Positions 1,208 to 12,142 of a stretch of 64,000 bases of DNA are shown here, in pieces. The notes under the pieces were generated by a model. That model was given only the letters and a program-made list of their open reading frames with translations, had not been told where the DNA came from and made no database searches. This stretch comes from Microbulbifer litoralis (GTDB lineage: Bacteria; Pseudomonadota; Gammaproteobacteria; Pseudomonadales; Cellvibrionaceae), in assembly GCF_023634065.1 (NCBI RefSeq), contig NZ_JALKCV010000003.1:310001-374000 (forward strand), written 5' to 3'. Each line of letters begins with the position of its first letter. The stretch's first letter is position 1. Both the position numbers and the translations under genes were made by a program.

Positions 1208-1410
1208 ACGTCGTCCCATAGCGCGCTGAAATGTGGCATCTGGCGTCGCCCCCCTGGTCCGCGTCCGATACGCGGCCGACATCCTGCGACGCAAAAACCG
1301 CGGCATTATATACTTGCGCGCCAATACAGTGTACCGGTCCATACTGAATGACACCTTTGAGCGCCATCGAGCATGGACCGATACCCTCCATTCGAATCAG
1401 CGGACTTCCC
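1208..1410. promoter_or_regulatory. Divergent promoter region between cytochrome c4 and engB
   Basis: This 203-bp non-coding stretch separates two divergent genes and must hold both promoters. I see no convincing consensus -35/-10 pair or known operator in it. Confidence 0.4.
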
Positions 1411-2034
1411 ATGCCTGAATCCCATCCTGAAAGATTGAACTACCGCTCTGTACAATTCCTGACCAGCGCCCCGACCCTGGCCGAGTGCCCCCCCGACGAG
1501 GGTGCCGAAGTGGCCTTTGCCGGGCGCTCCAACGCCGGCAAGTCCAGCGCCATCAACGCGCTGACCGGCAACAACAAGCTGGCGCGCACATCGAAAACAC
1601 CGGGCCGCACCCAACTGATCAACTTCTTCCAGGTCGGTGAAGAGCAGCGGCTGGTGGACCTGCCCGGCTACGGCTACGCCAAGGTGGCGCGCTCGATGAA
1701 GGACGAGTGGCAGCGGCACCTGGCCTTCTACCTGGAAAACCGCGAGTGCCTGCGCGGCCTGGTGCTGCTGATGGATATCCGCCAGCCGCTGAAGGAGTTC
1801 GACCTGCATATGCTGACCTGGGCGGTCAACTCCGGCCTGCCGGCGCATATCCTGCTGACCAAGGCGGACAAACTGAAAAACGGCCCGGCCAACAATACCC
1901 GCTTCGCGGTCGAGAAAGCGTTGAAGGAACAGGGACTGGATACCGGCGTCAGTGTGCAGATCTTTTCCGCCACCAAGAAGAGCGGGCTGGACAAGCTGGA
2001 GCGACAGCTGAACGAGTGGCTGGCGCCAAGCTAA
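1411..2034 (+). CDS. engB: Ribosome-biogenesis GTPase EngB/YihA
   Basis: This GTPase acts in large-subunit ribosome assembly and in growth and division; it is 207 aa, the usual family length. The protein opens with the family-typical [13 protein letters not shown]. The G1 loop GRSNAGKSS, the G2 threonine in TSKTPGRTQ, the G3 DLPGYG and the G4 TKADKL are all present. The frame is open back to an ATG at 1348, but the ATG at 1411 gives the family N-terminus. In enterobacteria and Pseudomonas the neighbour of engB is polA, with the small RNA Spot 42 or ErsA between them. Here polA lies about 7 kb away with an operon inserted between them. Confidence 0.96.
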
Positions 2035-2073
2035 GTTTGCGGTGTTGCTACCGGTGACGTTTCCACGGCCGGG

Positions 2074-2259
2074 TCACAGTGGCGCGAGTGATCGATCGGC
2101 GCCGGATCCGGGCAGCAGCGACTGCAACAGTGCCCGCCGCAATTTCCTGCGGGCCCGCGGTGTCAGGCCGCGCAGGTCCTGCGCGGTCAGGCGCCGCTGG
2201 GCCAACAGCAATACCAGTGTCTCCTCGCGGATGCTGATTTCAAGGTAGGGCGATGACAT
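2074..2259 (-). CDS. Small protein of unknown function, second gene of a Fur-box unit
   Basis: A 61-aa basic protein that I do not recognise. It starts MSSPYLEISIREETLVLLLAQRRLTA and contains an Arg/Lys-rich helix (RARRKLRRALLQSLL). There are no cysteines and no signal peptide or membrane segment. It begins 32 bp after the 149-aa gene on the same strand and probably shares its promoter and Fur control. It converges on engB with only 39 bp between the stops. The coding call rests on the tight spacing, the ATG preceded by AGGGA, and the biased composition. A chance ORF in GC-rich DNA is still possible. Confidence 0.55.
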   Translation of the reverse strand: MSSPYLEISIREETLVLLLAQRRLTAQDLRGLTPRARRKLRRALLQSLLPGSGADRSLAPL

Positions 2260-2291
2260 GGCGGCGTCCCTGCGCGAACCGGTTCACCGCG

Positions 2292-2741
2292 TCAGTGCAG
2301 GCGGGCGCCGCCGACGGCGGTGCCCACCTCCCACGGCGTCCGTACCGGCTCTTCCGACTGGCCCACATAGAGCGCGCGGATGCAGTCCGCGGTGATCTGG
2401 TAGTGCTGGCGATTGGCCAGTTCCCGCGCCAGGCGCGAGCTGGCCCCCACCAGGATGTAATTGCAGCGATTGCCCTCGCCCCGCTGGCGGTAGGCCTCCA
2501 TCAACTGCCGGGCGCTGTCGCCAAAGCGCATCGCCGCGACCGAATAGCCCGGCCACTGTTCCCCGAGCAGGTAATCCGCCAGCTCGAAAGCGCAGCCCAG
2601 GAACGGGATCGCCTCGGCATAGCTGCCATCCTCGGCCAGGCTGGCGCCCCGCTCCACCCAATCCAGCCAGGCCTGCTCGGCGCGGTGCGGTTCAGCGGTC
2701 AGCCACTGGCGGTGGTTGGCGCACAGGAAACGTAGATTCAC
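2292..2741 (-). CDS. Conserved-looking protein of unknown function behind a Fur box
   Basis: A 149-aa protein, largely helical and cytosolic, with no signal peptide or membrane segment. I do not recognise the family. The N-terminus VNLRFLCANHRQWL and the regularly spaced helices around residues 30-110 (for example AWLDWVERGASLAEDGSYAEAIPFLGCAFELADYLL, cut here for description only) look like a single TPR-type repeat region. I choose the GTG at 2741 because GGGAG lies 6 bp upstream. The ORF is open to 2804, but that start would have no Shine-Dalgarno and would reach almost to the Fur box. The Fur-like operator at 2809-2827 suggests the gene is expressed under iron starvation. Confidence 0.65.
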   Translation of the reverse strand: MNLRFLCANHRQWLTAEPHRAEQAWLDWVERGASLAEDGSYAEAIPFLGCAFELADYLLGEQWPGYSVAAMRFGDSARQLMEAYRQRGEGNRCNYILVGASSRLARELANRQHYQITADCIRALYVGQSEEPVRTPWEVGTAVGGARLH

Positions 2742-2808
2742 GGCTTGCTCCCGATCTTGAAATTCAATTGAAGGTCGATCCCACGGGCCATCGACACCAT
2801 TCAATCAT

Positions 2809-2827
2809 GCTAATGCGAATCATTATC
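2809..2827 (-). promoter_or_regulatory. Candidate Fur box upstream of the 149-aa gene
   Basis: GCTAATGCGAATCATTATC matches 16 of 19 positions of the classical Fur consensus GATAATGATAATCATTATC. It sits 68 bp upstream of the chosen GTG at 2741, a normal operator position. No other gene starts nearby on the other strand. Confidence 0.75.
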
Positions 2828-2896
2828 AACCGCAACAGTAACAAGTGCAGATTTGCGCCACAGTGTCGGGGCGGCGGTTTTGCGCACAGACGGGAT

Positions 2897-3024
2897 AAAA
2901 AAAGCCGGCAGATGGGGACTGCCGGCCAGGGGTCAGTGCCCTTGGGGACGGGCACTTAACAGACGCACCCAGGGGGACGGGTACGCCTGTGGGTTCTCAC
3001 CCATTTCCATCGATCTTGCTCTCT
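2897..3024 (-). ncRNA. Candidate small RNA, unit A: three hairpins with UCCCC loops
   Basis: This is a minus-strand stretch without a credible ORF. Read 5' to 3' it holds AGCAAGATCGATGGAA (3020-3005) and a 5-bp GAGA-loop hairpin (2990-3003). Next comes an 11-bp stem with two G-U pairs and loop GUCCCCCU (2960-2989). A 7-bp stem with loop GUCCCCAA (2935-2956) follows, and then an 8-bp stem with loop UCCCCAU (2904-2926), followed directly by seven U. The last hairpin is an intrinsic terminator. Three unrelated stems showing the same UCCCC loop suggests selection for pairing with Shine-Dalgarno-like GGGGA. The 5' end is a guess. A degenerate sigma-E-like pair (GGAAA at 3058-3054, 18 bp, TCTTG at 3035-3031) is present, and a TACAAT -10-like box lies at 3103-3098. 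Confidence 0.65.
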
Positions 3025-3173
3025 CTTACGCAAGACTATGGTCAGTGGATCGCTTTCCCCACTGCTTTTTGACGCCGAACGGAATTTCGGCAGCAGGATT
3101 GTATTGCCTTTTGGCGACAGAAACCGGAATAAAGTCCCGCTGTGCCCGAGAGTCGGGGCAGTTTCCTGCAGGC

Positions 3174-3269
3174 AAAAAAATGCCCCGATGTTGGGGAGGT
3201 CTCGGGGCGAGGGAAGCTCACTTACGGGGTATGGAGTGGAGCAACAAATGAAGCAACAAAACTGTGTTG
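3174..3269 (-). ncRNA. Candidate small RNA, unit C, directly downstream of nrdJ
   Basis: The unit starts just after a sigma-E/AlgU-type promoter. It begins with a hairpin GCAACA/UGUUGC (about 3267-3250), then a C- and U-rich single-stranded part, then a terminator. The terminator is stem GCCCCGA (3208-3202) with UCGGGGC (3188-3182), a 13-nt loop containing CUCCCC, and seven U after an A (3180-3174). The terminator closely resembles that of unit B at 8.7 kb, including the C-rich loop. No ORF with a ribosome site is visible. It could be a free small RNA or, by read-through, the 3' UTR of nrdJ. Confidence 0.6.
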
Positions 3270-3274
3270 CCTGT

Positions 3275-3302
3275 TTAGAGGGGTCGGGAGGGGCGCAGTT
3301 CC
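3275..3302 (-). promoter_or_regulatory. Sigma-E/AlgU-type promoter of unit C
   Basis: On the minus strand GGAAC (3302-3298) and TCTAA (3279-3275) are separated by exactly 18 bp. This is the spacing and sequence expected for extracytoplasmic-stress sigma factors (GGAACTT-N15/16-TCTRA). The same arrangement recurs at 8772-8799 in front of unit B. Confidence 0.6.
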
Positions 3303-3335
3303 TGCAACCAACGTAAAGAAGCGTAAATCCCGGCG

Positions 3336-5150
3336 CTATTCGCCCTCGCGCTCGATGTCGCAGCAGTGGCTGGCCGACTCCCCGCCGCCACTGGTGAGCA
3401 CCGCCTCGGTGATGGGGTTGGGGCGGAAGGTGGTGCACCCCTTCAGGCCCAGTTCGAAGGCGCGGCGATACAGGGATTCAAAGTCTGCAAACGGATAGTC
3501 CTCGGGCACGTTCACCGTTTTTGAAATCGCGTTGTCCACAAACGGCTGCAGCGCCGCCTCCATGCGCAGGTGGGCCAGCGGCGGCAGGCGCCGCGCGGCA
3601 GCAAATATCCCGGGCAGAGCTTCCGGATCGCCGCCGCGCTCGCACCAGAGGCGATAGGCGGGATCGGTGATCTCGAACGTGCGGTAGTCGCCGTTTTCGG
3701 TCAAGACCCGGCGCGAGTGACGGAAATCGAACACCGGCTCTATGCCGCTGGAGACGCCGTTGGCCAGCAGGCTGATGGTGCCGGTCGGGGCGATGGCCAC
3801 CAGGTGGCTGTTGCGGATGCCGCGCGCGGCGATTCCGTCGCGCAGGGCCTCCGGCAGCGAGCGGATATCCGGCCCGCCCAGGTAGCTGTCGCGCTCGAAA
3901 AACGGAAAGGCGCCCTTTTCCTCCGCCAGCTGGATGGAGGACCGGTAGGCACTGTCGCGCAGGGTGCGCATCACTCGCGCCGCCAGCGCGCGCGCCGCCT
4001 CACTGTCGTAGTGCAGCCCCAACAGGATCAGCGCGTCGGCCAGCCCGGTGACGCCGATGCCCACGCGGCGACTGCCCTGGGCCTGGGCCCGCTGCGCCGG
4101 CAGCGGATAGCGGGACAGGTCGATCACATTGTCCAGCATGCGCACCCCCAGCGCCGCGGTGTCGGCGATGCCGGCCCAGTCCAGGTCCGCACGCGCGCTC
4201 AGCGGCGCCCGCACGAAGCGCGCCAGGTTTACCGAGCCCAGGTTGCAGGCGCCGTAGGCCGGTAGCGGAATCTCGCCGCAGGGATTGGTCGCGCCGATCT
4301 GTTCGCGGTAGTAGAGATTGTTGTGGCGGTTGATGCGATCGACAAACAGCACACCGGGCTCGGCGCAATCGTAGGTGGCGCGCATGATCCTCTGCCACAG
4401 TTCCCGCGCCCGCACCCGTTTCAATACGCGGCAGGGCACGGGTGTCCGCGCACCGCTCCAGTGGCGCTCGAGAGTTTCGCCATCGCCGTCCAGCTGGTGT
4501 TCGGGAAACAGCAGCGGCCACTCGCGATCGCCGTCCACTGCGGCCATGAAGGCGTCGCTGACCAGCACCGACAGGTTGAAGTGGCGCAGCTCGCGCGGAT
4601 CCCGCTTGGCATCGACAAACTGCTCTATGTCCGGATGATCACAGCGCAGTGTCGCCATCATGGCGCCGCGGCGGCTGCCGGTGGACAGCAGCGTGGCGCA
4701 GGTGGCGTCCCAGATGCGCATGAAGGATACCGGGCCGGAGGCGATGGTGCCGGTGTGCCGGGCGCGACTGGCGGCGGGGCGCAAGGTGGAGAAGTCGCAG
4801 CCGATACCGCCGCCCTGCTGCATGGTCAGCGCCGACTCCTTGAGCCGCTCGAAGATGGCGTCCATCGAATCCTCGATGTCGCCCATGACGAAGCAGTTGA
4901 ACAGCGTCACCCGGTGGCCGGTCCCCGCCCCGGCGAGAATGCGCCCGCCGGGCAGGAAGCGGAAGTCCTCCAGGTTGCGGTAGAAACGCAGTGCCCAGCG
5001 ACCGCGGTCCCGCGCCTCCACGCCGGCCAGGGCCCGCGCCAGCCGCCGCCAGCTGTCCTCCACGGACCGGTCGCGGACGGCGTCGCCGTCGCGATGGCGA
5101 TATTTGGTGTCCCAGATAAAGCGGGAGATCTCGGTGTCGAAATAGTCCAC
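3336..5150 (-). CDS. nrdJ: Adenosylcobalamin-dependent (class II) ribonucleotide reductase
   Basis: A 604-aa class II ribonucleotide reductase that reduces ribonucleotides using coenzyme B12 rather than oxygen. The catalytic finger-loop motif N289-P-C291-G-E293 is intact. The reducing pair is probably C86 (LFNCF) and C302 (ACNLGSVNL). STGSRRGAMM (about 156-165) and the C-terminal GCTTFRPN also fit the family. The tail ends SHCCDIEREGE, whose adjacent cysteines probably re-reduce the active site. The start is GTG at 5150, one base after the stop of the PRPP-synthetase gene, so translation is coupled. No cobalamin riboswitch is visible, and the gene appears to be driven from the operon promoter near 7.45 kb. 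It would supply dNTPs under low oxygen if the host has or imports B12. Confidence 0.9.
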   Translation of the reverse strand: MDYFDTEISRFIWDTKYRHRDGDAVRDRSVEDSWRRLARALAGVEARDRGRWALRFYRNLEDFRFLPGGRILAGAGTGHRVTLFNCFVMGDIEDSMDAIFERLKESALTMQQGGGIGCDFSTLRPAASRARHTGTIASGPVSFMRIWDATCATLLSTGSRRGAMMATLRCDHPDIEQFVDAKRDPRELRHFNLSVLVSDAFMAAVDGDREWPLLFPEHQLDGDGETLERHWSGARTPVPCRVLKRVRARELWQRIMRATYDCAEPGVLFVDRINRHNNLYYREQIGATNPCGEIPLPAYGACNLGSVNLARFVRAPLSARADLDWAGIADTAALGVRMLDNVIDLSRYPLPAQRAQAQGSRRVGIGVTGLADALILLGLHYDSEAARALAARVMRTLRDSAYRSSIQLAEEKGAFPFFERDSYLGGPDIRSLPEALRDGIAARGIRNSHLVAIAPTGTISLLANGVSSGIEPVFDFRHSRRVLTENGDYRTFEITDPAYRLWCERGGDPEALPGIFAAARRLPPLAHLRMEAALQPFVDNAISKTVNVPEDYPFADFESLYRRAFELGLKGCTTFRPNPITEAVLTSGGGESASHCCDIEREGE

Positions 5151-5151
5151 T

Positions 5152-6117
5152 TCAGAAGCTCAGCTGCGTTGCCGGACCGCTGTCGTGCAGGCGGCGGATG
5201 GCCTCCGCCAGCAGCGGTGCGCAGTCGACGATCTCCAGCCCCCGGCGCCGCTCTTGCGGCAGGGAGTTGGTCACTGCCAGTGCCTCCAGCGGCAATTGCG
5301 CCAGCCTGTCGAGCGCGTCGCCGCAGAACTGGCCGTGGCTGGCGAGGGCAATGATCCGCTTGGCCCCGCCCCGCTGTAACGCCTCGGCGGCGCGACAGAT
5401 GGTGCCGCCGCCGGCGATCAGGTCGTCGATGACCAGCACCGTGGCATCGCGCACCTGGCCCACCAGCGCGCCGCCGGTCAGCCGGTCGCCGCTGCGGTAT
5501 TTCTCCACGAAGGCGTTGCCCAACTGCCGCTGCAGCCGTTCCGCCAGCGCCAGGCGCAGCGCCTCGGCGCGCTTGACGCCGCCCACATCCGGCGACGCCA
5601 CCACCAGCGGATTGCTATCGCCCTTCAACAGCCGCGCCGCGTACTCGACAAACAGCGGCTGCGCCGGCAGATGCAGGGTGCGGCAGCGGAAGGCGTTCTC
5701 GAACGCGGCCTGGTTGTGGGCGTCGAGGGTGACCACGGCATCGGTGCCCACGGCTTCGAACAGGCTCGCCAGGTAGCGGCTGGACAGCGGATCGTGCAGT
5801 TTCGTGCGGCGGTCCTTGCGCGCGTAGCAGAGGTACGGCACGACCGCACAGACCCGCGCGGCACCGGCATCTTTCAGGGCGTTGATAAAGAACAGGCTGC
5901 GCACCAGCCTGTCGTCGACACTGCCACTGGCATCGCCGTGCAGCGATTGCACCAGGTAGACGTCGGCCCCCTCGACATCGTCCAGGGGGCGGATCTTGTG
6001 TTCGCCGTCGACAAAATCGCGCTCCTCGTGTGCGGCCAGCGGCTCGCCCAGAGCGGCGGCAACGCGGCCGGCAAACTCCGCACCGGCCTCGAGGCTGAAC
6101 AGTTTCAGGCGGCTCAC
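5152..6117 (-). CDS. Ribose-phosphate pyrophosphokinase paralogue
   Basis: A 321-aa enzyme of the PRPP synthetase family (ribose 5-phosphate + ATP to PRPP + AMP). The flexible-loop segment PYLCYARKDRRT corresponds to the family's PYFGYARQDRR, and TLDAHN matches the family's DLHA region. The PRPP-binding loop VLVIDDLIAGGGTI is present, but the usual DTGGT aspartate is replaced by Ala. It is clearly diverged from a housekeeping Prs and is probably a specialised paralogue. The start is GTG at 6117, overlapping the hydrolase stop by 4 bp. Its position between a phosphoribosyltransferase and a ribonucleotide reductase suggests it feeds PRPP to nucleotide salvage in this operon. Confidence 0.85.
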   Translation of the reverse strand: MSRLKLFSLEAGAEFAGRVAAALGEPLAAHEERDFVDGEHKIRPLDDVEGADVYLVQSLHGDASGSVDDRLVRSLFFINALKDAGAARVCAVVPYLCYARKDRRTKLHDPLSSRYLASLFEAVGTDAVVTLDAHNQAAFENAFRCRTLHLPAQPLFVEYAARLLKGDSNPLVVASPDVGGVKRAEALRLALAERLQRQLGNAFVEKYRSGDRLTGGALVGQVRDATVLVIDDLIAGGGTICRAAEALQRGGAKRIIALASHGQFCGDALDRLAQLPLEALAVTNSLPQERRRGLEIVDCAPLLAEAIRRLHDSGPATQLSF

Positions 6118-8685: not shown

Positions 8686-8766
8686 AAAAAAAAGCCCCGG
8701 ACTTGGGGGGTTCCGGGGCAAACATCTGACTTCCTTGGGGGATGATGACGCATTCCAACGATCTTG
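8686..8766 (-). ncRNA. Candidate small RNA, unit B (ErsA/Spot 42 position)
   Basis: From about 8766 the minus strand reads AGCAAGATCGTTGGAA, identical to unit A at 15 of 16 bases. A CAUC/GAUG-closed segment showing AUCCCCCAAGGAAG follows. Next is the terminator: stem GCCCCGGA/UCCGGGGC (8719-8712 with 8701-8694), loop ACCCCCCAAG, and eight U (8693-8686). A sigma-E-type promoter lies just upstream at 8772-8799. It lies downstream of polA on the same strand, exactly where Pseudomonas ErsA (AlgU-dependent, with a UCCCC seed) and enterobacterial Spot 42 are found. No ORF with a ribosome site is present. The stop of the convergent phosphotransferase-like gene is 15 bp away, so the terminator may act on both strands. 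Confidence 0.72.
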
Positions 8767-8771
8767 CTTAG

Positions 8772-8799
8772 TTAGAGGCACGGCTGGCGTGACGGTTCC
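8772..8799 (-). promoter_or_regulatory. Sigma-E/AlgU-type promoter of unit B
   Basis: GGAAC (8799-8795) and TCTAA (8776-8772) on the minus strand are separated by 18 bp, the same geometry as the promoter at 3275-3302. The predicted start is about 6-8 bp downstream, near 8766, at the beginning of the AGCAAGATCG segment. Confidence 0.62.
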
Positions 8800-8885
8800 C
8801 CCAAAAACGTTAAAAAGTGTTAAAAAATTGATCAGGGTCGCGAGATTGTCGCCCGATTCATTCACAAGTGGTGCGAGACGTAAAT

Positions 8886-9151: not shown

Positions 9152-11878
9152 TCAGTGGGCCTCGTCCCAATTGGCGCCCTGCCCCACATCGACGATCAGC
9201 GGCACCGCCAGCTCCGCCGCGCCCTGCATCAGGCCGGTGATCCCCTGGACGACGGTCTGCACCTCTTTCTCCGGCACCTCCAGCACCAGTTCGTCGTGCA
9301 CCTGCATGATCAGTTTGGTCGCCAGCTTCTGCTCGGCCAGCCAGGCATCCACCTCGATCATGGCGCGTTTGATGATATCCGCGGCGCTGCCCTGCATGGG
9401 CGCGTTGATGGCAGTGCGCTCGGCGGCCTGGCGCTGCATGCCGTTGCGCGAGTTGATCTCCGGCAGGTACAGGCGGCGGCCGAACAGGGTTTCGACGTAG
9501 CCCTGCTCCGACGCCTGTTTGCGGGTGTTGTCCATATAGGCGCGCACGCCCGGGTAGCGCTCGAAGTACAGGTCCACGTATTTCTGCGCGTCGGCGCGGG
9601 GAATGCCCAGCTGTTTGGCCAGGCCGAAGGCGGACATACCGTAGATCAGGCCGAAGTTGATCGCCTTGGCGCGGCGGCGCTGTTCGTCGCTGACATCGTC
9701 CGGCTTCTCGCCGAATACCTCGGCGGCGGTGGCCCTGTGGATATCCTCGCCGTTGGCGAAGGCGTCCACCAGCCCCCGGTCACCGGACAGGTGCGCCATG
9801 ATGCGCAATTCAATCTGTGAATAGTCCGCGGCGATGATCACGCTGCCCTCCGGCGCTACGAAGGCCTGGCGGATGCGGCGGCCCTCTTCACTGCGGATGG
9901 GGATGTTCTGCAGGTTGGGGTCGCTGGACGACAGCCTGCCGGTGGCGGCCACCGCCTGGTGGTAGGAGGTGTGCACACGGCCGCTTTTGGGGTCGATCAT
10001 CTGCGGCAGCTTGTCGGTATAGGTGTTCTTGAGCTTGGCCAGGCCGCGGTACTGCATGATCAGCGCCGGCAGCTCGTGGCTGAGCGCCAGTTCCTGCAAC
10101 ACCGGTTCGGCGGTGGAGGGGGCGCCCTTGGGGGTTTTCTTGATCACCGGGATGCCGAGCTTTTCGAACAGGATGGCGCCCAGCTGCTTGGTGGAGCCGA
10201 GATTGAATTCCTCGCCGGCCTCGTCGAACGCCTTCTGCTCCACCTCGCGCATTTTCTGTTCCAGTTCACCGCTCTGCCCGGCCAGCATCTGCGCGTCCAG
10301 GTAGGTACCGTTGCGCTCCATATGGATCAGCACCGGCAGCAGTGGCATCTCGATTTCGTCCAGAACCTTTTCCAGCGGCGGAACCTGTTCCAGGCGCGCG
10401 GACAATTCGCGATGCAGGCGCAGGGTGATATCCGCATCCTCGGCGGCGTAGGGACCCGCCTTGTCCAGCTCGATCTGGTTGAAGGTCAGCTGCTTGGCGC
10501 CCTTGCCGGCAATATCCTCGAAGTGCACGGTTTTCTCGTTCAGGTACTTGAGCGCCAGGCTGTCCATATCGTGGCGGCTGGCGGTGCTGTCGAGGGCATA
10601 GGATTCCAGCATGGTATCGCGTTCGATACCGCGCAGTTCGATATCGTAGTTCGCCAGGATATGGCTGTCGTACTTCAGGTTCTGGCCGACCTTCTTCTGC
10701 TGCGGGTCTTCCAGGATCGGCTTCAGTTTGGCCAGCACCTGGTCGAACGGCAGCTGTTCCGGCGCGCCCATATAGTCGTGCGCCAGCGGCACATAGGCGG
10801 CCTTGTAGGGCTCCACGGCGAAGGACAGGCCCACCAGTTTCGCCTGCATATAGTTGAGGCTGGTGGTCTCGGTATCGAAGGCGAAGATGTCTGAATCCTT
10901 CAGTTTCTGCAGCCAGGCGTCGAACCCGGCCATGTCGGTGACGATGACGTATTCGCGCTCGACCGCCTCGGCCATGGCCTCTTCGGCGTCCTCACCGGAC
11001 AGCTCCTCCAGCCAGCCGCGGAATTCCAGCTCGCCGAACAGCGCGATCAGCTTGTCCTTGTGCGGCTCGGCGTTGTGGAGATCCTGTGGATGAATCGACA
11101 TATCCACATCGGTCTTGATGGTGGCCAGCTTGTAGGAGAGTTCCGCCGCCTCGCGGTGCTCGGCCATCTTCTTGCCCAGGGTCTTGGCACCGCGGAAGCC
11201 CAGCGGTGCAATGGCATCCAGGTCCGCGTAGATGGCTTGCAACCCGCCCAGGTTTTGCAGCAGCGACAGCGCGGTCTTCTGGCCCACGCCGGGCACGCCG
11301 GGGATGTTGTCGGACTTGTCGCCCATCAGCGCCAGGAAGTCGATGATCAGTTCCGGGCCCACGCCGAATTTCTCTTCCACGCCCGCACTGTCCATCTCGG
11401 TATTGGACATGGTGTTGACCAGGGTAATGCCCGGGCGCACCAGCTGGGCCATGTCCTTGTCGCCGGTGGAGATGATCACTTCCACACCCTTCCTCTGCGC
11501 CTCCAAGGCCAGCGTACCGATGACGTCGTCCGCCTCCACGCCTTCGATCACCAACCGCGGCAGGCCCATGGCGTCGATCACATCGTGAATCGGCTGTATC
11601 TGCTCGCGCAGGTCGTCCGGCATCGGCGGGCGGTGGGATTTGTAGTCGGCGAACAGCTCGTCGCGGAAGGTCTTGCCCTTGGCATCGAAGACCACTGCCA
11701 CGGTGCTGTCCGGATGCTCCTTCAGGTGCCGGCGCAACATGCTGATCACGCCACGCACCGCGCCGGTGGGCTTGCCACTGCTGGTGGCCAGCGGCGGCAG
11801 GGCGTGGAAAGCGCGGTACAGGTAGGAGGAGCCGTCCACCAGGATCAGCGGTGCGGCATTGGACTTCTGCTTGCTCAT
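9152..11878 (-). CDS. polA: DNA polymerase I
   Basis: A 908-aa DNA polymerase I for lagging-strand maturation and excision repair. It contains an N-terminal 5'-3' nuclease domain (residues about 10-290, acidic motifs VEADDVI and TGDKDMAQL, helix-hairpin-helix near 190-210). A proofreading domain follows, with D335-T-E337 (FDTETTSL), NLKYDSHIL and [12 protein letters not shown], so all DEDDy exonuclease motifs are intact. The polymerase domain has DYSQIELR, the O-helix region [13 protein letters not shown] and VHDEL. The frame is open to 11992, but the ATG at 11878 gives the family start [24 protein letters not shown]. The linker around 300 is acidic. Orthologues elsewhere neighbour engB and a small RNA. 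Here the gene is followed by a small membrane protein and unit B. Confidence 0.97.
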
Positions 11879-12142
11879 AAACTCTCGGGTCCGGGTATTC
11901 GATTGGTTGGCGCGGCGATCGGCGGCGGCCAGTAAAACAGTGCCATAGCATAACCGCCCTTGCCGCTTTTTTCCTTCGCCCCCGCCATTCACCGTCCTTT
12001 TCGGAGCGATTGGCGCAGTGCGTCCGGGTTCCGCATTTCCCCGTCTAGCCTTAACGGTAAAGGCGACGGCTTTTCAGCGAGCTGCGCACAATCTCCGCGG
12101 TAATCGCGGCCCCGTACCCTGCAATGATCGAGGGAATTGACG

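Follow-up and report, generated by a model that had tools for sequence, protein, structure and literature searches.

A probable small RNA gene with three C-rich hairpin loops near polA in Microbulbifer, its sibling candidates and a sign of one locus-bound family

Does the DNA between engB and polA in Microbulbifer litoralis encode a small RNA (sRNA) that pairs through C-rich loops and, if so, is its design new or already known from this locus under other names? The window analysed here is a stretch of 64,000 nucleotides (contig NZ_JALKCV010000003.1, positions 310,001 to 374,000), in which the original prediction, made from the letters alone, had placed three successive minus-strand hairpins with C-rich loops, GUCCCCCU, GUCCCCAA and UCCCCAU. 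Sequence and fold bear out both the coordinates and the loops. The hairpin region of this gene, referred to as A (Table 1), occupies minus-strand positions 2990–2897 and consists of three hairpins, each with a CCCC or CCCCC run in its loop. The last of these is a terminator with a U7 tract, as had been proposed, and the tract (2903–2897) forms the 3′ end of A. The stem lengths agree as well: the 11 bp noted for stem 1 lie inside a 12-bp stem, stem 2 has 7 bp, and the 8 bp noted for stem 3 lie inside a 9-bp stem. The minus strand has a folding z-score of −5.48, with none of 200 shuffles equally stable. The four C-runs of A, counting the linker run that separates stem 2 from stem 3, are predicted to be unpaired with a probability of 0.87–1.0 (0.87–0.92 for the linker run).

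Table 1. Positions of the RNA genes, motifs and neighbouring genes in the window
Feature	Position	Strand	Basis or remark
RNA gene A (three-hairpin C-loop RNA)	2897..3029	minus	Fold, genus conservation, compensatory changes; 5′ end putative
A stem-loop 1, loop GUCCCCCU	2959..2990	minus	12 bp drawn; both-side changes in 8/12 pairs
A stem-loop 2, loop GUCCCCAA	2935..2956	minus	7 bp; both-side changes in 4/7 pairs
A linker CCCC, between stems 2 and 3	2929..2932	minus	Fourth C-run of A
A stem-loop 3 with U7, intrinsic terminator, loop UCCCCAU	2897..2927	minus	Stem 2927–2903, 9 bp with G-U
A small 5′ hairpin GGGU-GAGA-ACCC	2991..3002	minus	Weak, with pairs in 73.6% of cells; retained by some of the genus only
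A promoter-like motif TGGGGA-N17-TAGTCT	3033..3061	minus	Putative sigma70-like layout
RNA candidate B	8686..8765	minus	Follows polA after one short stretch; 5′ end putative
B sigmaE/AlgU-type promoter motif GGAACC-N17-TCTAA	8772..8799	minus	Sequence pattern
RNA candidate C	3174..3268	minus	Terminator with CUCCCC in loop, U7; 5′ end putative
C sigmaE/AlgU-type promoter motif GGAACT-N17-TCTAA	3275..3302	minus	Sequence pattern
engB (presumed)	1396..2034	plus	GTPase domains in Pfam and genome search; convergent with A
polA	9152..11992	minus	PF00476, E 9.8e-169; shares its strand with A, B and C
RNR and prs genes	3336..6117	minus	Pfam; part of the block between B and C–A
orf170	2292–2741 or 2804	minus	

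A full copy of A was found by blastn in 36 of 37 genus genomes, the exception (G007) being 80% complete, and in none of 21 genomes from elsewhere in the order. Since blastn gave no match outside the genus, a covariance model, R1, was built from the 36 genus loci and used there. In the alignment of these loci, standard pairs make up 93.3% of the cells in the stems, compared with 87.6% in column shuffles and 33–47% in slid controls. The compensatory changes that had been proposed as a check are present: 16 of the 32 pairs show changes at both partners, where shuffles give 7.0, and the cells concerned number 69, where shuffles give 16.2. One of five measures, the number of further pair types, does not rise above shuffles (31 vs 30.1), and stem 3 contributes both-side changes in 2 of its 9 pairs, with five pairs invariant. 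As judged from the alignment, the compensatory changes support the structure. A is a genuine RNA structure under selection and, with high probability, the gene of an sRNA.

The stems also bear on the strand. In the ten inner pairs of stem 1 and in stems 2 and 3, 89 cells are G-U and 3 are non-standard, figures that count cells and not independent events. Because G-U cells are kept and A-C cells are almost absent, the RNA strand is the minus strand. The same loops read GGGGAC on the other strand, and an RNA made from it would display GGA loops that might bind CsrA/RsmA like RsmY/RsmZ or CsrB. We find this scarcely credible: besides the G-U cells, the T-tract ends the minus strand, the plus strand folds differently and more weakly (z −2.25 vs −5.48), and no Csr/Rsm family is among the Rfam matches of A up to E 10.

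Invariant CCCC loops had also been expected, which turned out true of loops 1 and 2, with C-runs in 36 of 36 genus sequences, but not of loop 3, whose C-run is found in 23 of the 36. The remaining 13 carry GCUGCAAU in its place, belong to one clade (L015, L023, L024, L027–L030 and L032–L037) and keep stem 3. The linker C-run is present in 34 of 36 sequences, or 33 by a stricter pattern. A search pattern made of the two invariant loops matched 42 stretches of named genomes, of which 25 belong to Microbulbifer; R1 scores all 25 at 111.7–134.8 bits and lists one of the 17 others, at 13.2 bits. In the clade with the altered loop 3, polA lies in the 1.5-kb upstream flank of 12 of the 13 loci, the thirteenth having too little contig, and of none of the 23 loci that keep the C-run. 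A near copy of the A terminator hairpin (GGCCGGCAG...CUGCCGGC) occurs at an unrelated place (L040, G003:C1 near 4052367), where the other hairpins are missing.

The placement of A in the engB–polA interval was right as regards the ErsA/Spot 42 locus, but it holds only loosely in the window, where some 6 kb, containing RNR, prs and further genes, separate A from the end of polA at 9152. The convergent gene on the far side of A is presumably engB, to go by its family. In the genus as a whole, polA is the next upstream gene (tblastn, 1.5-kb flank) at 12 of the 36 A loci. The gene order is polA–B–A–engB in one clade, while in the clade of the window RNR, prs and others separate B from C–A. No match in the window attains the gathering score of its Rfam family.

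A promoter-like motif, TGGG[GA]A-N16-17-TANNNT, is found upstream of A in 33 of 36 genus sequences, and in the window it would put the 5′ end of A near 3025–3029. A consensus promoter scan of 2000–4500 reported no promoter, and the genus loci scanned have no sigma22/AlgU-type promoter motif at A. Lying downstream of both C and the RNR gene on the same strand, A might instead be the 3′ part of a longer transcript from one of them, processed or terminated there. This is improbable given that C has its own terminator, that A has the motif just described, and that A is kept with differing upstream neighbours, with prs or polA in place of RNR.

On the other side of A, orf170 starts on the same strand about 100–150 bases past the terminator, an arrangement in which A could serve as a regulatory leader with a terminator for this gene. 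Such a role is very unlikely, however. By tblastn orf170 is found at 27 of the 36 A loci and not at the other nine, which keep A. Moreover, a Fur-box-like site lies between the two in the window (2809–2827, minus strand), agreeing at 15 of 19 positions with the Fur consensus. Sites matching at least 14 of 19 positions within 250 bases past A occur at 15 of the 36 genus loci, compared with 0.05 expected from shuffles. Their position between A and orf170 suggests that orf170 has a control of its own, and the gene may be iron-controlled, to go by this motif. Both orf170 and orf61, which together fall within 2074–2804 on the minus strand, are small open reading frames without a Pfam match and lie between A and engB at many genus loci.

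Two further C-loop RNA candidates, B and C, absent from the original prediction, lie on the A strand. B has CCCCC near 8742–8737 and CCCCCC in its terminator loop and is matched in 47 of 48 genus genomes. In its alignment (34 rows, one sequence entered twice) GGAAC[CT]-N17-TCTAA precedes 32 of the 33 sequences, with a spacer of 17 in all 32. For C, a strict pattern recovers the corresponding motif in 10 of 13 sequences and a loose one in all 13. The layout is of the sigmaE/AlgU type. As regards gene presence only, RpoE was found in 21 of 21 genus genomes and Hfq in 31 of 31. The stretch around B, taken alone, folds no better than shuffles (z −0.43), and R1 touches B at 8687–8812 with 17.8 bits. 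In comparisons against shuffles that keep base composition only, not dinucleotides, B and C are alike (none of 500 shuffles reaches their score), while A and C are not (145 of 500 do). The A and B leaders have in common a 16-base stretch with one mismatch (none of 2000 shuffles), which hints that A and B may be copies of each other; this match is a feature of the window, the A leader being poorly conserved across the genus.

Is the three-loop design new? The original prediction knew of no three-loop version at this locus, a view that sX13 of Xanthomonas overturns, having three C-loop stems downstream of polA. The sX13 paper of 2013 describes an RNA of 115 nt with loops of 4C, 4C and 5C, encoded 175 bp downstream of polA, Hfq-independent and acting via 4G motifs close to the start codon; the pairing of the loops to these motifs was shown with GFP fusions and mutated loops (PMC3771888). 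The same paper calls the RNA exclusive to Xanthomonadaceae and asks whether the polA locus of other bacteria encodes such sRNAs. It places two further RNAs at the polA locus, ar7 of alphaproteobacteria, with three stem-loops and C-rich motifs, and Spot 42 of E. coli and Vibrionaceae, which has no sequence similarity to sX13 and requires Hfq (PMC3771888).

A is like sX13 (RF02232) in its three stems, C-rich apical loops, end terminator and similar length. All three apical loops have their C-runs in 23 of 36 genus sequences and two have them in the rest. The same-strand place downstream of polA is also common to both, except that in the window A is about 6 kb away. A differs in its extra linker C-run and in having the sibling genes B and C. 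With the sX13 model A scores 30.5 bits over its full length (E 6.1e-4 on 561 bases), short of the gathering score of 50, and a search of the window's whole genome with that model at E 0.01 did not report A. For hfq, a target of sX13, GGGG was found in none of 30 genus start regions (about −22 to +48; the window's own hfq was not among them).

ErsA comes from the polA–engB region, depends on AlgU/sigma22 and has 132 nt and three stem-loops; on anr it is predicted to use an unstructured U-rich domain (PMC8575079, PMC5819304, PMC8395346). ErsA (Pseudomon-1, RF01719) is like A in its locus and like B and C, but not A, in its sigmaE/AlgU-type promoter, the A motif being sigma70-like. Hfq binding and the targets algC, amrZ, oprD and anr further characterise ErsA. 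The ErsA model lists neither A up to E 10 nor B up to E 5, and has no match in the window's own genome at E 0.001. A third relative, anti-hemB of Burkholderia (RF02837), resembles A as a C-loop terminator RNA adjacent to polA or engB at most of its best 30 loci. Its model is shorter (81 positions) and gives 16.2 bits for A and 19.3 for B, far under the threshold of 49.5. At the thresholds applied, the sX13, anti-hemB and ErsA models reported nothing from the genome of the window, and the Spot 42 family is not among the Rfam matches of A up to E 10 or of B up to E 5. LhrC of Listeria and CcsR of Rhodobacter, from other bacterial groups, also have repeated C-rich pairing sites. By sequence, then, A is neither the sX13 nor the ErsA of Rfam, while by design and locus it most likely works like sX13. 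In the literature searched, outside which many subscription papers lie, no paper mentions both sX13 and ErsA or was seen to link these families, and none mentions Microbulbifer together with small RNA and sRNA; anti-hemB appears there only in tables of two Burkholderia papers.

We conclude with reasonable confidence that A encodes an sRNA which acts in trans by base pairing, as sX13 does. It is one of three C-loop genes (A, B and C) that lie between polA and engB on the strand of polA, of which B and C would have sigmaE-type promoters and A a sigma70-like one. An A RNA of about 130 nt would display C-rich runs in hairpin loops and in one linker. These would pair with G-rich stretches at or near the start codon in several mRNAs, whose translation would drop as a result, an effect taken from the experiments on sX13. 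By the same analogy, pairing with multiple targets is plausible. With their ErsA-like sigmaE/AlgU promoter motifs, B and C would answer envelope stress, and A, with its sigma70-like motif, would be made more constantly. What the analysis shows is the sequence, structure and strand of A, its conservation and locus, its neighbours and the promoter motifs; from these and from sX13 we infer the transcription of A, the 5′ ends, the acting sigma factors, the targets and repression by pairing.

The likeness of A to sX13 and ErsA could mean descent within one family or separate origins. In the latter case A would still be a real sRNA of this design, with A, sX13 and ErsA having arisen separately and the C-loop terminators between polA and engB being a product of convergence. 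Both terminators and C-rich runs can evolve easily. The scores between the groups are low: in addition to the 30.5 bits of A with the sX13 model, R1 gives 22.3–23.0 bits on true sX13 loci and does not list the ErsA loci L139–L141. Since these scores (22–31 bits) come near the 21.1 bits that R1 gives to an unrelated place with a similar terminator, convergence has to be taken seriously, as a tentative alternative.

Against it stands, first of all, a survey of the locus in other bacteria. To avoid a model-based choice, 60 engB-adjacent regions were fetched. Twenty-five of them, in which polA was missing from the adjoining 2.6 kb or so, were dropped. The other 35, with polA within that distance, represent 24 families and were kept; for two longer intervals (L149 and L175) the count covered the 1500 bases closest to engB. 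A terminator with a CCCC loop in the last 110 bases was found on the polA strand of 20 of the 35 intervals and on the opposite strand of two, with 0.9 expected from shuffles. When an upstream ECF-like motif (a loose pattern) is added, the counts become 16, 0 and 0.0. At least one such interval occurs in 13 of the 24 families, and three intervals have three C loops. Rfam identifies three intervals (L139–L141) as ErsA, at 126.8–138.7 bits with a gathering score of 50. The same place and strand in so many families argue against convergence, and the survey suggests that similar C-loop RNAs lie at the polA locus in many families, which ties the matter to ErsA of Pseudomonas. The two opposite-strand cases (L157 and L175) both belong to family f38, where the C-loop terminator is perhaps an inverted copy.

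Model searches lead to the same locus. Within the order, 20 R1 loci outside the genus (L057–L076) were taken, with 19 further ones left aside. Nine of them score at least 33.5 bits, all in one family (f28), and have engB (9/9) and polA (8/9) in the flank. The other eleven, none of which exceeds 31.3 bits, lack both genes in the flank and were set aside as chance matches or unrelated terminators. At E 0.05 R1 found nothing in the eight listed genomes from other genera of the family to which Microbulbifer belongs; searched on their own, two loci from these genomes reach 25.9 and 28.6 bits. Loci found with the sX13 model lie at polA–engB in three of five cases in the order and beside polA or engB in 7 of 12 in the class. 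The class searches with the sX13, anti-hemB and ErsA models covered the same 274 genomes and have matches in common (G596, G490, G481, G582 and G692), and so do not count as independent. The anti-hemB model is a loose one, matching 123 of the 274 genomes, of which 13 pass the cut-off. Among its best 30 loci, 23 lie beside polA and/or engB, and seven, including the top locus (L243), have neither gene in the flank; all 10 ErsA-model loci lie beside polA or engB. By loose patterns, for which about 0.06 matches are expected per 150 bases of even composition, an ECF-like motif precedes 20 of the 30 anti-hemB loci and 8 of the 10 ErsA loci. Both the proximity to polA or engB and the common promoter motif speak against convergence.

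In genome G596 (L201) the space between polA and engB contains a tandem row of four C-loop RNA genes, each about 100 bases long and about 210 bases apart. Each copy sits behind GGAAC and GGTCTGA elements. All four are seen by the anti-hemB model and one each by the sX13 and ErsA models, and this recognition of tandem copies in one genome by different Rfam models is a further point against convergence.

On balance we lean slightly towards descent, that is, towards ErsA, sX13 and anti-hemB being slices of one old sRNA family bound to polA–engB, mostly with sigmaE-type promoters. Tandem copying would have taken place in it several times, giving two or three genes in Microbulbifer and four in G596, and A would be a copy gone from sigmaE control, with up to four C-rich pairing sites. 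Rfam can then be read as holding this putative family in pieces, under several names. The three-C-loop design of A was already known from sX13; of more interest are the presence in Microbulbifer of a set of two or three such genes and the indication that several named sRNAs form one locus-bound family. The survey speaks to the closing question of the sX13 paper on the polA loci of other bacteria (PMC3771888). If the single family is real, the findings on sX13 and ErsA could be read together, envelope stress would be the likely older input, and Microbulbifer, with sigmaE-type B and C beside a differently driven A, would offer a natural test of a division of work.

Two other loci have arrangements of their own. 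In family f8, locus L130 contains two tandem weak matches to the ErsA model (40.1 and 34.8 bits) and a third C-loop terminator further on. At L120, from another genus of the same family as Microbulbifer, long inverted repeats with arms of 65, 32 and 28 bases, perhaps a mobile or repeat element, lie between the C-loop RNA and engB.
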